A stretch of 38,522 nt of DNA, taken from the NCBI GenBank assembly GCA_022510605.1, contig JAFLTB010000025.1:1-38522 (forward strand), given 5' to 3'. This document shows positions 4,241 through 38,522 of this stretch, piece after piece (position 1 is the first letter of the stretch; every line of letters starts with the position of its first letter). A program made the translations under genes and the position numbers. The DNA is from Lachnospiraceae bacterium. GTDB taxonomy: Bacteria; Bacillota; Clostridia; Lachnospirales; Lachnospiraceae. Below the pieces are notes generated by a model. That model searched no databases. It was not told the DNA's origin and saw only the letters and a program-made list of their open reading frames with translations.

Positions 4241-4288
4241 TAAAAAATCTTCCACCCCCACAACCATGCGGTTGTAGAGACGAAAGAT
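4241..4288 (-). terminator. T-box terminator of leuA
   Basis: An 18-bp stem counting G-U pairs, with an ACAACC/GGTTGT top around a GCAT loop, followed on the minus strand by TTTTTT. It lies directly downstream of the T-box sequence, where the conditional terminator is expected. Confidence 0.88.
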
Positions 4289-4565
4289 GTCATTCTCTCG
4301 CGGTACCACTCTACTTCATGTCCCGGTGTCCTGGAACATGCCCTCATCAGCACTAACATGCCTTTCCCCTGTAACGGTGGGCTTCCGGTGTACTCTACTG
4401 TATAGCGCCTCCGGCAAAAGGAGTTTTTTGCCCCCAGGGGAAAACGCAGGGTTCAAGTACACGGCTCAGAGGCGAGTTCGCTGTATTCCTTTTGCTGTCT
4501 TGCACCAGCCGGCAGCTCTCTGGAAAAAGTAGGACAGTTACTATTCCTCATCTTTGCCTTTGTCG
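4241..4565 (-). promoter_or_regulatory. T-box leader (leucine-type), controlling leuA
   Basis: On the minus strand the leader starts with a stem I region (GGAATAGTAACTG; GAGAGC...GGCTGGTGCAAGAC) and contains the hallmark T-box sequence AGAGTGGTACCGCG at 4312-4299. A candidate specifier CUC (Leu) lies at 4476-4474 in the context GAACTCGCC. T-boxes bind uncharged tRNA to stabilise an antiterminator, so low charged tRNA-Leu would turn on leuA. The specifier call is made by eye and fits the gene. Confidence 0.93.
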
Positions 4566-10839: not shown

Positions 10840-12180
10840 ATGAGATATTTGATTCGGATGATTTATGGAGTGCTTATATTTATACTGGCAAACAGCTATT
10901 CCCTCGGAGGCTTTATTCCTGTAGGAGCAGGGGTCTGGCTTCTGTTTTTGCTGTTTGTGGGCATGAATGTGGCGCCGTCCTTTGCCAACCGGAAATTGCA
11001 GACGGGGCGGCTTCGGGTCAGCGCAGATGGTTGTGAATTGCTGGAGCTGTTCCTGATTTCCACGGGACTGTCCATTGTCTATTCTCTGGCCGGCTGGTCT
11101 GGTTGGCTGCCACTGGGCTCACTGCTTCAGGAGCCTAAGTTGTGGATTGTCAATACGCTGATTGTCTTTCTGGTGGAGGCGGTGGTATTCTGGAACGGGA
11201 TGATCCGGATTTATGTGACTTCGGTTCAATTGGGGATAAAATGGCGGGTCATTGGTGCGCTGTGCGGATGGATTCCTATTCTTAATCTGGTTGTACTTAT
11301 GAAAATGATAGATATTGTGAGGCGGGAGGTTGCCACAGAACAGGGGAAGATACTGGAGGCCCAGGAGTACCGGGAGGAGGAGCGATGCCGGACAAAATAC
11401 CCTCTCTTGATGGTGCATGGCGTGTTTTTTCGGGATTTCAAGCATTTTAACTATTGGGGCAGGATTCCCGGAGAACTGGAAAAGAACGGCGCCTGTATCT
11501 ATTATGGCAATCATGCGTCGGCCTCTTCGGTGGAGGACAGCGGTGTGGAACTGGATGCCCGTATACGGCAGATTGTGGAGGAAACAGGATGTGAAAAGGT
11601 AAATATTATTGCCCACTCCAAAGGCGGGCTGGATTGCCGATATGCGCTTTCCCGTCTGGGGACAGACCGCTATGTGGCTTCGCTGACCACTATCAACACT
11701 CCCCATCGGGGCTGTCAGTTTGCGGATTATCTGCTGTCACAGATTTCCGAATCCAAGCAGAGACGGGTTGCCAGTGCGTATAATGCGGCGCTGGCTGTAA
11801 TGGGCGACGAACATCCGGATTTTCTGGCGGCCGTAGGCGCTTTGACGGAAGAGGCCTGCCGGAAGCGGAATGAAGAGCTGCCGGACAGCAGCCAGGTGTA
11901 TTACCAGAGTGTGGGCTCCAAATTAAACCGCCCCTCCGGCGGACGGTTTCCGTTGAATTTTTCCTATTATTTGGTAAAGCACTTTGACGGTGCCAATGAT
12001 GGTCTGGTGGGCGAGGAATCCTTTCCCTGGGGTGAAAAATTTCAACTTGCTGCCACCACTGGCCGACGGGGAATCTCCCATGGAGATATGATTGATTTGA
12101 ACCGGGAAAACTTTGATGGATTCGACGTCAGGGAATTTTATGTGGAATTAGTCCATGAACTGAAAAAGAAAGGCTTCTAG
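10840..12180 (+). CDS. Membrane-anchored lipase-like alpha/beta hydrolase
   Basis: A 446-residue protein. Residues 1-~165 contain about four hydrophobic segments. The rest is an alpha/beta hydrolase with an oxyanion-type HGVFFRD at residues 193-199 and a nucleophile motif AHSKGG with Ser260. This is a variant of G-x-S-x-G in which Ala replaces the first Gly, as in Bacillus-type lipases. INTPHRG and a late HGD fit a lipase (triacylglycerol or phospholipid esterase). The catalytic domain's side of the membrane is uncertain. The start follows AAAGGAG at a longish spacing. It follows pnuC and ends just before two repeat elements. Confidence 0.8.
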   Translation: MRYLIRMIYGVLIFILANSYSLGGFIPVGAGVWLLFLLFVGMNVAPSFANRKLQTGRLRVSADGCELLELFLISTGLSIVYSLAGWSGWLPLGSLLQEPKLWIVNTLIVFLVEAVVFWNGMIRIYVTSVQLGIKWRVIGALCGWIPILNLVVLMKMIDIVRREVATEQGKILEAQEYREEERCRTKYPLLMVHGVFFRDFKHFNYWGRIPGELEKNGACIYYGNHASASSVEDSGVELDARIRQIVEETGCEKVNIIAHSKGGLDCRYALSRLGTDRYVASLTTINTPHRGCQFADYLLSQISESKQRRVASAYNAALAVMGDEHPDFLAAVGALTEEACRKRNEELPDSSQVYYQSVGSKLNRPSGGRFPLNFSYYLVKHFDGANDGLVGEESFPWGEKFQLAATTGRRGISHGDMIDLNRENFDGFDVREFYVELVHELKKKGF

Positions 12181-12190
12181 CTATTTTAGC

Positions 12191-12237
12191 GTTAGCACAA
12201 AACTAAACAAGGTTCAAACTAGCGCCATCATGCTAAG
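12191..12237 (+). repeat. Dispersed 47-nt repeat, copy A
   Basis: Matches 34938-34984 on the minus strand at 39 of 47 positions, and all eight differences are transitions. The ends form a small inverted repeat (TTAGCA 12192-12197, TGCTAA 12231-12236). It lies just after the lipase stop codon. Confidence 0.7.
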
Positions 12238-12253
12238 AGTAACAATCCTTAAA

Positions 12254-12342
12254 CCAAGAAATACCCTTCCATCAGTGAGAACCTTAACGCGAGACGCTAT
12301 TGCGTTGTTGTCGGTTCGAATCGATGGAAGGGTATTTCTTGG
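12254..12342. terminator. Long hairpin terminator with conserved 50-nt block in the loop
   Basis: Perfect 20-bp arms at 12254-12273 and 12323-12342 enclose a 49-nt loop. The right arm is followed by CTTTTTAAG. The loop has its own nested pairing: GAACC with GGTTC, and AACGC with GCGTT. It separates the convergent lipase and pyrG genes, so it probably terminates the plus-strand operon. The loop block (12276-12325) recurs at the right edge of the window. Confidence 0.8.
12276..12325 (+). repeat. 50-nt conserved loop block, copy 1
   Basis: Identical at 49 of 50 positions to 38473-38522 read on the minus strand; the one difference is T at 12311 versus C. It contains GGTTCGAATC, which resembles a tRNA T-arm, but no other tRNA parts. 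Confidence 0.85.
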
Positions 12343-12346
12343 CTTT

Positions 12347-13951
12347 TTAAGAATTGTACTCTATAGCAGCTCCTACAAAACCCTTAAATAACGGGTGTGG
12401 GTGGTTTGGCCGGGACTTAAATTCCGGGTGTGCCTGTGTGGCCACAAACCACGGGTGAGTAGAAATTTCAATCATTTCCACAATCCGGCCATCCGGTGAA
12501 AGACCGGAAAGGGTCATGCCGTGTTTTTCAAAGTCTTCCCGATAGAGGTTATTGACCTCGTAGCGGTGACGGTGTCTCTCGTGAATAATTTCCTTGCCGT
12601 AAAGTTCAAAGGCCTTGCTGTTCTTGTCCAGTTCGCAGGGATAGGAACCGAGACGAAGGGTGCCGCCGATGTCCTCCACGCCGTCCTGATCCGGCATCAG
12701 ATGGATAACCGGGTGTGTGGTGGAAGGGTCTAACTCGGCGCTGTGAGCATCGTTCCAGCCGATGACATTCCGGGCAAATTCCACCAGGCTTAACTGCATG
12801 CCCAGGCAGAGGCCCAGGAAAGGAATGTTATTTTCCCTGGCATATTCAATGGCATAGATTTTTCCGTCAATACCCCGGTCGCCAAAGCCGCCCGGCACCA
12901 GTATGCCGGTGGCTCCTGCCAGCTGCTCCGCCACATTTTCCCGGGTAACCTCCTCGGAATTTACCCATTTGATATTAACCTGGGCATTGTGGGCGAAACC
13001 GCCGTGCTTCAGGGACTCTACCACACTGATATAAGCGTCGTGGAGAGCGGTATATTTGCCTACTAAGGCAACGGTTACTTCTTTGTTCAGATGTTTGATG
13101 GAGTCCACCATGTTTTCCCATTCCTGGATGTCCGGCTCCGGGCAGTCCAGGTGCAGACACTTGCAGACCGTCTGGGCCAGGTGTTCCTTTTCCATGGCCA
13201 ATGGTACTTCGTACAGGGTCTCTACATCCAGGTTCTGGATAACCTGACTGTTTGGCACGTTACAGAAAAGGGAGATTTTATCCCGAAGAGCCTTATCTAG
13301 CGGAATCTCTGTACGGCAGACAATCACATCCGGCCGGATACCCATTCCCTGCAATTCCTTTACGCTGGCCTGGGTAGGCTTGGACTTTAACTCTTGAGAA
13401 GCCTTCAGGTAAGGAACCAGTGTTACATGGATGAGAATGGCATTTTCATGTCCCACATCCAGCTGGAACTGGCGAATCGCCTCCAAAAATGGCTGGCTTT
13501 CAATATCTCCTACGGTGCCGCCTACCTCAATAATGGCAATCTGTGTCTCCTTGCAGCCGTCGTTGCGGTAAAACCGGCTTTTCAGTTCGTTGGTAATATG
13601 GGGGATGACCTGAACCGTACCGCCGCCATAGTCTCCCCGGCGTTCCTTGGAAAGAACCGACCAGTATACCTTTCCAGTTGTTACGTTACTCTGTTTTGTC
13701 AGGCTCTCATCGATAAACCGTTCATAATGTCCCAAATCCAAATCTGTCTCGGCACCGTCATCGGTGACAAATACCTCGCCGTGCTGAATAGGATTCATAG
13801 TGCCCGGGTCGATGTTGATGTAGGGGTCAAATTTCTGCATGGTTACACTGTAACCGCGCATTTTCAAAAGCCGTCCCAAAGAGGCGGCCGTAATACCCTT
13901 GCCCAGACCGGAAACAACACCGCCGGTCACAAATACATACTTGATAGCCAT
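12347..13951 (-). CDS. pyrG: CTP synthase
   Basis: A 534-residue enzyme that makes CTP from UTP, ATP and glutamine in the cytosol. The N-terminal synthetase domain shows the P-loop [10 protein letters not shown] and [21 protein letters not shown]. The C-terminal class I glutamine amidotransferase shows PGGFGDRG, the nucleophile motif GLCLGMQ, and a late H-P-E. The length matches E. coli PyrG (545). The ATG at 13951 follows AGGAGGAGAAA; an in-frame ATG at 13981 lies within a hairpin and lacks a binding site. It is monocistronic and divergent from ftsH. The stop is 4 nt from the conserved hairpin terminator. Confidence 0.97.
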
Positions 13952-13972
13952 TTTCTCCTCCTGATTATATAA

Positions 13973-13997
13973 GAACGTCATGTCAGGAATGACGTTC
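13973..13997 (-). promoter_or_regulatory. Hairpin just upstream of the pyrG ribosome binding site
   Basis: Perfect 9-bp arms GAACGTCAT and ATGACGTTC around a 7-nt loop, about a dozen bases before AGGAGG. Only TTATATAATC follows, so it is a weak terminator at best; it may be an attenuator or mRNA stabiliser. Confidence 0.5.
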
Positions 13998-37326: not shown

Positions 37327-37419
37327 GGAGATAGTGTAACATTGAATTGGATGCCGGCATAGAGCCAATCCGGCAGAATGTGTACGGGAAGCCCATTGAC
37401 GCTTCGGAAGGAGGTAAAT

Positions 37420-38445
37420 GTGAAATACATAAAAAAAGCTGGCTGTCTTTTCCTGATACTGGCGATGGCCATTGCCATCACTGACGGAAGCAGTGTGCAG
37501 GGAAAGAAAAAGGCAAAGCTGAATAAGACAAAACTCACTCTTTATGTGGGAAAGTCGGCAAAGTTGAAAGTGAAGAATAACGGCAAAAAGGTAAAGTGGT
37601 CCTCCTCGAAAAAGAAGGTGGCTGCTGTGACAAAAAAGGGAAAGGTGACGGCGAAAAAAGCAGGAAAGGCCGTTATTATAGCTAAGATTGGCAAAAAAAA
37701 GTTACGATGCCAGGTGACAGTAAAAAAGAAAAAGGTGGTTTACCAGACCCAGATGGTGGAAAATTTTGAAAGTTATGAGGCAGGAACTGACTGGGGAAAT
37801 TACACTCTGGGGGAAGGCCTCACCAGTGGCGGTGATGAGAAACCCCACTACCTGGCAGAGGGAGAGACCATGCAGGTGGTGACAGACCCGGAAAACGCCT
37901 CCAACAAGGTATTGAAGGTAGTGCCAAAGTTTTACAGCTTCTGTCCGGTCTTCACCGTGGATTTGGCAAAGCTGACCGGAGATGCCACAAAGAAGTTGGG
38001 AGATTATGCCGGTATCCGGGTGAAAGTCCGGGTTGTCAGTGACGCCACCCGGCATGTGGGCATTAGTCTGAACGCTTTCTTTGGCAATGCCGGAAGCATC
38101 AATAAAAAATATGCGTTTAATACTTACACTTCTGCGCAGGACGCCCTGCCAGCAGAGCGGGAATACTATAAATTCTATTACACCAGGGGAATGGTGACGG
38201 GAGAGACGCCAGAGGATGGCGAGATGCCACAGGTGAAAAGTGGAAAGAGCATGAAGGGGCATAAGTTTGCTGAGGGGGATAAGGCAGCAGGCTTCGCTGC
38301 CAAGACACTGGTGTTTAATAAAAATCTGACAACGGAATTGCGAAACCAGACGACCTTTGATTTTGTGGTGGGCGGCAGTTATGGCCCGGCCAATGAGGAG
38401 TATCTGGCCTGGTATCTGGATGATGTGCAGCTGATATATAAATAG
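37420..38445 (+). CDS. Secreted protein with BIG2-type Ig-like domain
   Basis: A 341-residue protein. A signal peptide (MKYIKKAGCLFLILAMAIAI, GTG-initiated) is followed by a Lys-rich bacterial Ig-like group 2 domain (~30-110: LTLYVGKSAKLKV, VKWSSSKKKVAAVTKKGKVTAKKAG). Residues ~115-341 may be a jelly-roll, carbohydrate-binding-like domain (MVENFESYEAGTDW; YLAWYLDDVQLIYK at the end). No catalytic motif is seen, so it is probably a surface or secreted binding protein. The GTG at 37420 follows GGAAGGAGG by 5 nt; the open frame reaches 37378 but lacks a binding site there. Confidence 0.82.
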   Translation: MKYIKKAGCLFLILAMAIAITDGSSVQGKKKAKLNKTKLTLYVGKSAKLKVKNNGKKVKWSSSKKKVAAVTKKGKVTAKKAGKAVIIAKIGKKKLRCQVTVKKKKVVYQTQMVENFESYEAGTDWGNYTLGEGLTSGGDEKPHYLAEGETMQVVTDPENASNKVLKVVPKFYSFCPVFTVDLAKLTGDATKKLGDYAGIRVKVRVVSDATRHVGISLNAFFGNAGSINKKYAFNTYTSAQDALPAEREYYKFYYTRGMVTGETPEDGEMPQVKSGKSMKGHKFAEGDKAAGFAAKTLVFNKNLTTELRNQTTFDFVVGGSYGPANEEYLAWYLDDVQLIYK

Positions 38446-38472
38446 TCTGTAAACAGCAAGAGTTTCCATCCA

Positions 38473-38522
38473 ATCGATTCGAACCGGCAACAACGCAATA
38501 GCGTCTCGCGTTAAGGTTCTCA
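38473..38522 (-). repeat. 50-nt conserved loop block, copy 2 (truncated by window edge)
   Basis: 49/50 identical to 12276-12325, in opposite orientation. The flank 38455-38470 (CAGCAAGAGTTTCCAT) would be one arm of its outer hairpin; the other arm lies beyond the window. It is just downstream of the secreted-protein gene, so it is probably its terminator. Confidence 0.8.

Follow-up and report, generated by a model that had tools for sequence, protein, structure and literature searches.

Intrinsic (Rho-independent) terminators lie behind stop codons, where an A-rich stretch is followed by a strong stem and then by a T-rich stretch; as a rule they have short loops and are not related in sequence from one locus to another. 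The hairpins described here share this position and layout, but differ from ordinary terminators in having a long, conserved and structured tip and a mostly fixed orientation. They also resemble the REP, BIME and REPIN sequences (RAYT/TnpA-REP), which the available portions of PMC3733652, PMC2817692 and PMC3116915 depict as short extragenic palindromes, many per genome and often in alternating or paired orientation. REP-type sequences are 20-40 bp long with a GTAG or CGTC foot, whereas the present hairpins measure ~90 nt with a tip of up to ~50 nt, have no general foot, have no RAYT shown for them and hold copies of host gene ends in their arms. At either foot GTAG was found in 10, GTGG in 2 and CGTC in 3 of 87 copies, against 1, 6 and 2 of 87 in background windows 180-200 nt away; GTAG is commoner at the foot, but far from general. 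Other stem-loop repeat families (Cozzuto et al. 2008, PMC2267715) are likewise intergenic repeats that fold; the available portion of that report mentions no host-copied arms, the comparison being one of descriptions. Quasipalindrome template-switch mutations and RNA hairpins made by template switching are alike in that one arm is copied from the other by hairpin priming, the precedents in the available portions of PMC7202029 and PMC8794818 being hairpins of reporters, microRNAs and rRNA, whereas here a single dispersed family is concerned, with host coding tracts at many loci. An earlier description of the hairpin family was not found in the literature searched.

The hairpin behind pyrG and its second copy

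The window analysed is a stretch of 38,522 nucleotides, the whole of contig C42 of a draft Lachnospiraceae genome of 2.7 Mb in 123 contigs (G000). Its features are as follows.

10840..12180, + strand: alpha/beta hydrolase (lipase-like) on the far side of copy 1; ORF, Pfam Abhydrolase_1, E 1.4e-6
12231..12252, - strand: far flank resembling the inverted pyrG end; same alignment as 12347..12368, and family-wide tests
12250..12347, + strand: hairpin copy 1, type T1, span of the R1 covariance model; 111.8 bits, E 9.8e-29
12254..12273, + strand: stem 5' arm CCAAGAAATACCCTTCCATC; pairs 20/20 with 12323-12342
12274..12278, + strand: AGTGA, 5' side of the conserved internal loop (AGYGA); alignment A1
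12279..12317, + strand: apical part, GAACC/GGTTC helix and AACGC/GCGTT helix; inner pairs G-C, A-U, A-U, C-G in 16/16 aligned copies
12318..12322, + strand: GAATC, 3' side of the conserved internal loop (GARTC); alignment A1
12323..12342, + strand: stem 3' arm GATGGAAGGGTATTTCTTGG; read from the sequence
12347..12368, - strand: pyrG coding end, gene-side arm of the outer palindrome; 17/18 columns identical, score 12.0, which equals the threshold
12347..13981, - strand: pyrG, CTP synthase, host gene of copy 1; ORF, Pfam CTP_synth_N, E 9.8e-127
37378..38445, + strand: host gene of copy 2; ORF
38451..38522, - strand: hairpin copy 2, type T1, incomplete at the end of the contig; 67.7 bits, truncated

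An earlier note on this DNA had described a perfect 20-bp stem around a 49-nt loop (12274-12322), and 12254-12273 indeed pairs with 12323-12342 without mismatch. The repetition it had seen is equally exact, the block 12276-12325 being the reverse complement of 38473-38522 save for one T/C difference. The hairpin is intergenic, as stated, but is nearer to pyrG than to the lipase-like gene, with the pyrG stop codon (12347-12349) touching the model span and the lipase-like gene already ended at 12180. Copy 1 was itself among the 16 copies used to build R1. Beside it, at 12188-12236, stands a second imperfect palindrome that by eye resembles the sequence behind pyrG in the congeneric genome G160 (L190) and is probably another repeat family.

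Copy 2 follows its gene closely, as had been noted, the model span beginning 5 nt behind the stop codon; a T1 hairpin likewise follows the aligned gene of G160 (L138). Beyond position 38522 a complementary arm had been predicted, which was testable in part only: read as its reverse complement, the terminal part of contig C38 starts with the same 45 nt and continues with GATTGGATGGGAACTCTTGC, of which 19/20 positions pair with the copy-2 arm (38456-38475). Contig C16 also has those 45 nt, but its arm fits copy 2 badly. In genome G179 the gene ends aligned with those of C42 and C38 are turned towards each other, with ~64 bp between them; hence C38 is the likely neighbour of C42.

Family size and distribution

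The block proved to be multi-copy, with 29 BLAST matches in its own genome at E<=1e-3, far from chance, and 96 R1 matches, both strands counted. The working list for G000 combines R1 matches with a re-scan of fetched stretches, two weak BLAST matches (C65:1-63 and C95:14843-14898) being left out, and has 72 rows, of which 15 are cut by contig ends and some are necessarily halves of one copy. The family comprises some sixty or more similar hairpins, in this bacterium and some close relatives, and the assembly of G000 often breaks inside them. Outside G000 the distribution is narrow. Family matches were present in 3 of 150 Lachnospiraceae genomes sampled (G000, one congeneric and one of another genus, the last with a single 38.9-bit match). 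Within the genus 18 of 39 genomes gave matches, which were most numerous in G000, G160 and G186. An exact pattern retrieved 14 stretches from GTDB contigs, 13 of them from the Lachnospiraceae MAG HAN043 and one from a betaproteobacterial MAG in which no model match was found. Viral contigs gave 0 exact pattern matches, and spread by viruses was rejected on that count.

No Rfam family reached its gathering score at the hairpin (the best, mir-2363, had 41.4 bits against 90 required), which upholds, on the RNA side, the earlier statement that it matches no known element type. Above the gathering cut-off the window holds only a T-box and two tRNAs; the T-box leader lies at 4273-4563 on the minus strand (121.4 bits).

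Anatomy and covariation

On the plus strand of copy 1 the order of elements is A-rich flank, arm, AGYGA, GARCC helix, apical AACGC/GCGTT helix, GGYTC, GARTC, arm and T-rich flank. The stem had been seen to vary between the two copies while the tip was conserved, and the check on the arms extends this: the flanking arms still pair, with covariation. In alignment A1 (16 copies) 95.5% of the cells are paired and double changes occur in 12 of 28 pairs, a result that 0 of 500 shuffles reach; all five covariation measures exceed at least 498 of the 500 shuffles and every slid control. The internal loop is conserved and strand-specific (AGYGA/GARTC), with a G.T and tandem G.A on one strand only. The tandem G.A positions are kept in nearly all A1 copies, and one pair inside the loop switches from U-A to C-G while the adjoining G.U is kept in 16/16. 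Of 85 copies, 41 have AGCGA and 25 have AGTGA on the 5' side, and 52 have the strict pattern on both sides. The earlier likening of the tip to a T-arm does not hold, for the Y/R position inside GAYTC varies with compensation (U-A in 12, C-G in 3 and U-G in 1 of 16), which a T-loop would not tolerate there. A tRNA-derived or T-arm element was rejected on this ground and because ARAGORN reports two ordinary tRNAs only.

The arms fall into two types, T1 (..CCAATC) and T2 (..CACGAATC and similar), arms of one type being related from copy to copy. A regular expression assigns 44 rows of G000 to T1 and 28 to T2, at least one of them being known to be mislabelled. The tips cluster by genome: the nearest tip was in the same genome for 92 of the 105 tips of G000 and G160, against a mean of 56.5 and a maximum of 77 with shuffled labels, the shuffles being made within types set by a classifier that mislabels many T2 copies. 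Therefore the copies expanded, or were homogenised, after the species split.

Several copies are altered in structure. One has a second, unrelated hairpin inserted in its tip (L148 3276-3405), and two are stripped of most or all of the tip, leaving the stem only (L066 12611-12669 and L097 4095-4143). At L080 ~4322-4400 the 3' half of a T2 hairpin is partially duplicated in tandem, by eye right before a promoter-like TTGACA.

Position and orientation

Position was assessed over 146 rows, not all independent (72 from G000, 39 from G160, 21 from G186 and 14 from others), in draft assemblies with genes called by a simple codon-usage script of our own. The earlier suggestion of a multi-copy family at gene 3' ends is supported, since 120 of the 146 copies have a gene 3' end no more than 60 nt away. 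In 95 rows such an end is found on one side only, and the conserved strand is antisense to the host gene in 89 of these and not in 6. Of the rest, 25 rows have a close gene end on either side, and in 26 the 60-nt limit takes in no gene end, the hairpin being cut by a contig end in 10 of these 26.

Some copies are paired at distances of 57-251 bp, with 14 pairs in G000 and 6 in G160 (L128, a near-duplicate, left out). All 14 pairs of G000 face away from each other and 13 of them mix T1 with T2 by regular expression, the fourteenth being mixed as well when L087 4291 is read by eye as T2; in G160 five of six face away and five of six are of mixed type. Possibly mixing is favoured in that two like hairpins would make one large unstable inverted repeat. 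T1 and T2 as the ends of one fixed-spacer unit were considered and rejected, because the spacers range from 57 to 251 bp, look unrelated and are in part an inverted gene end. A composite transposon bounded by two distant hairpins was also set aside, the ORFs between them being ordinary-looking by eye at the three places viewed.

The base composition is biased, A amounting to 0.44-0.51 before and T to 0.47-0.61 after the hairpin, against 0.26-0.30. In G000 the T fraction in the last 12 nt is 0.47, with a run of at least three T in 34 of 46 copies and of at least four in 14 of 46. A simple terminator scan with a loop limit of 3-8 does not list the hairpin. We infer from the sequence that the hairpins may serve as transcription terminators or as mRNA 3'-end hairpins.

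Inverted copies of host gene ends

The palindrome often extends beyond the stem and into the host gene, so that the far flank is an inverted copy of the gene 3' end. To measure this, 60 nt of gene-side flank were compared with the reverse complement of 60 nt of far flank, in matched and in mismatched pairings. Matched flanks scored 10.86 against 7.33 in G000 (the 57 of 72 rows with enough flank) and 13.49 against 7.69 in G160 (39/39), with 0 of 2000 permutations reaching either value. Scores of at least 14 were obtained for 14/57 copies in G000 and 15/39 in G160, as compared with 0.3-0.7% of unmatched pairs and with 1/84, 0/22 and 0/18 of the ordinary hairpins behind genes in G179, G000 and G160, respectively. 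The excess is confined to the vicinity of the hairpin, vanishing once the comparison leaves out the 30 nt (G000) or 60 nt (G160) next to it.

With a stricter rule (120-nt flanks, a score of at least 12, and a similarity that begins on either side no more than 10 nt from the hairpin) an adjacent extension is seen in 45 of 96 copies, 22/57 in G000 and 23/39 in G160, against 24 of 1414 mismatched pairings; 51 of the 96 do not pass. The product to be looked for after a template switch, a reverse-complement copy of the neighbouring sequence that adjoins the hairpin directly, is found by this rule in 45/96 copies. The extension runs into coding sequence in 33 of the 45 and reaches at least 10 nt into the gene in 29. 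The pyrG copy passes just at the threshold. The best extension, at a dCMP-deaminase-like gene (L084), covers 74/91 columns with 75 nt of coding sequence; those at a P-type ATPase gene (L136) and a solute-binding protein gene (L149) cover 52/59 and 44/47 columns. Within the copied tract the inner and outer halves are equally similar (0.82 and 0.81; n 19, p 0.52), which fits copying in one stretch and disfavours a gradual outward growth of the palindrome. No significant extension was detected in the 21 copies of G186 or in the 13 of 14 copies tested from other species (P 0.06-0.81 over all skips).

Orthologous loci bear on the direction and the age of the copying. Over nine orthologous pairs the own-flank scores average 13.8 against 11.4 for cross comparisons, two of the cross scores being high (32 and 39), probably because the hairpin points the other way there. 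At the ATPase locus the inverted copy in G000 and that in G160 each reproduce the gene end of the respective genome, the two ends being different (own scores 22 and 33, cross scores 9 and 7), and G179, which has no hairpin there, preserves an aligned ordinary gene end. Since the hairpin-less G179 keeps the gene end, the gene is the source of the copy at this locus, the sole one examined in this way. Copies of each genome's own end further imply that the copying took place after these species had parted, or that the sites were filled independently.

Comparison with related genomes

Behind pyrG an ordinary-looking terminator is seen by eye in G160 and in G179, the closest (85% identity) of 29 other pyrG loci fetched from the genus; none of the 29 gave a model match even at E<=1. 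From G179 800 kb of 2.6 Mb were fetched, in which seven loci could be aligned on both sides (pyrG, C41, C55, C82 and C118, and the junctions C122/C52 and C42/C38). At all seven the gene ends align, the spacer looks unrelated by eye and no model match is found; by eye there is no clean empty site, the spacer looking replaced. G179 has five weak match rows at three places, none at those seven loci. For one of these rows, L218 8477-8564 (26.8 bits), the locus is orthologous to that of the C55 23291 copy, and G160 too has a copy at this site; some sites are thus probably old and common to the three species. By eye TTAA stands on both sides of several T1 copies, at most a candidate for a duplication.

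Among the matches listed for G186, most of the 21 copies are near-identical, those of L159 and L160 excepted. In this genome 13 of the 21 copies are flanked on one side by a stretch of more than 450 nt in which no gene was called, and in both loci scanned tandem repeat arrays stand in that stretch. At L166 8324-8684 and L169 2461-2903, for example, the hairpin is followed by a non-coding mosaic with 73-, 49- and 81-83-bp tandem repeats common to loci. A separate observation concerns L128 (contig C73 of G160) and L078 (contig C81 of G000), which are 98.6% identical over 3.2 kb, the other compared loci being 68-81% identical; either a misbinned contig or a recent transfer would account for it.

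Origin of the arms

We propose that these are lineage-specific, terminator-positioned palindromic repeats the arms of which would be written and kept by hairpin-primed template switching, a reading to which we assign a probability of roughly 0.55. During replication the nascent gene-sense strand would fold at the tip and prime on its own 5' arm; the primed strand would then copy the 5' arm together with tens of bases of the gene end before returning to the template, so that a single tract would write both a perfect arm and an inverted gene end on the far side. Hairpin-primed template switching that gives perfect arms and an inverted upstream copy is documented in the available portions of PMC7202029 and PMC8794818. 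The proposal would explain why stems vary and yet pair, because one arm is rewritten from the other in one tract. Template switching should erase mismatches, whereas the internal loop is conserved, and selection must therefore be added; it would keep the core stem, which is nearly perfect (95% paired) as against ~82% likeness in the outer tract, and the internal loop. As to new sites, the simplest conjecture is that copies recombine or switch templates with one another.

The idea in the earlier note of a mobile element dropped into existing terminator loops is not sustained, given that the arms are themselves related in two types and that the seven G179 loci have an unrelated-looking spacer with no match. 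Whole elements might instead have moved: a miniature element of the MITE or REP kind, transposed in trans by an enzyme recognising the tip, with arms drifting under selection for pairing and host copies as a side effect, is conceivable but in our judgement doubtful. It would account for high copy numbers in few genomes and the many near-identical copies listed for G186, for the clustering of tips by genome, for a conserved asymmetric tip with its G.T and tandem G.A on one strand, and for the lack of model matches at the seven G179 and 29 fetched pyrG loci. Against it stand the absence of a clean target duplication at the compared loci, where the spacer looks replaced by eye, the 0 exact pattern matches in viral contigs and the distribution of the Y1 transposase domain (PF01797). 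This domain was matched in G000, G186, G166, G173 and G179, RAYT and IS200 being taken together, and was not detected in G160, a genome of high copy number and 88% completeness, or in G161. The sole match of G000 is partial, in a partly masked gene, and has no copy of the hairpin within 1.5 kb; an IS200-type transposase gene of that genome, partly masked, is located at L113 1411-1818. Mobilisation by a RAYT is, on this domain search, not supported. A dispersed element that inherits the tip alone is unlikely too: here the tip would seed behind a stop codon and prime itself, and the host gene end would be copied as outer arms, so that each copy would consist of a mobile tip and an inverted, not direct, target duplication.

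Selection on RNA offers a different account, which we consider improbable. In a cis-acting 3'-UTR family the tip of the mRNA would bind a protein, and orientation and stem would be maintained by selection alone through stepwise compensatory mutations; the orientation in 89/95 rows, the place behind stop codons, the stem covariation and the conserved internal loop would all follow. The inverted copies of coding sequence are, however, left unexplained, and the patchy occurrence within one genus also speaks against it. Moreover, G.T and tandem G.A are the non-canonical pairs expected to be stable, and these belong to the antisense strand of the gene rather than to the mRNA. Reverse transcription, in which a hairpin at the mRNA 3' end would prime itself, the gene end would be copied and the cDNA would recombine into the locus, would yield the same product and would explain both the copying from the gene to the far side and an orientation that follows transcription. 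As template switching during replication gives this product with known steps, we hold the route through RNA to be very improbable.

Significance

In our best reading these are palindromic, terminator-positioned repeats shaped by a known mutation process, the unexpected part being the host-derived arm. Compensatory change in RNA stems is usually read as the work of selection. The present family amounts to dozens of natural replicates in which the arm has a recognisable donor, the end of a coding gene, so that one can measure how much template switching and how much selection contribute to keeping hairpins paired. The family would also be an instance of a repeat rewriting what lies behind many genes of a single genus, and it is a warning against taking covariation in such repeats as proof of a conserved RNA function.
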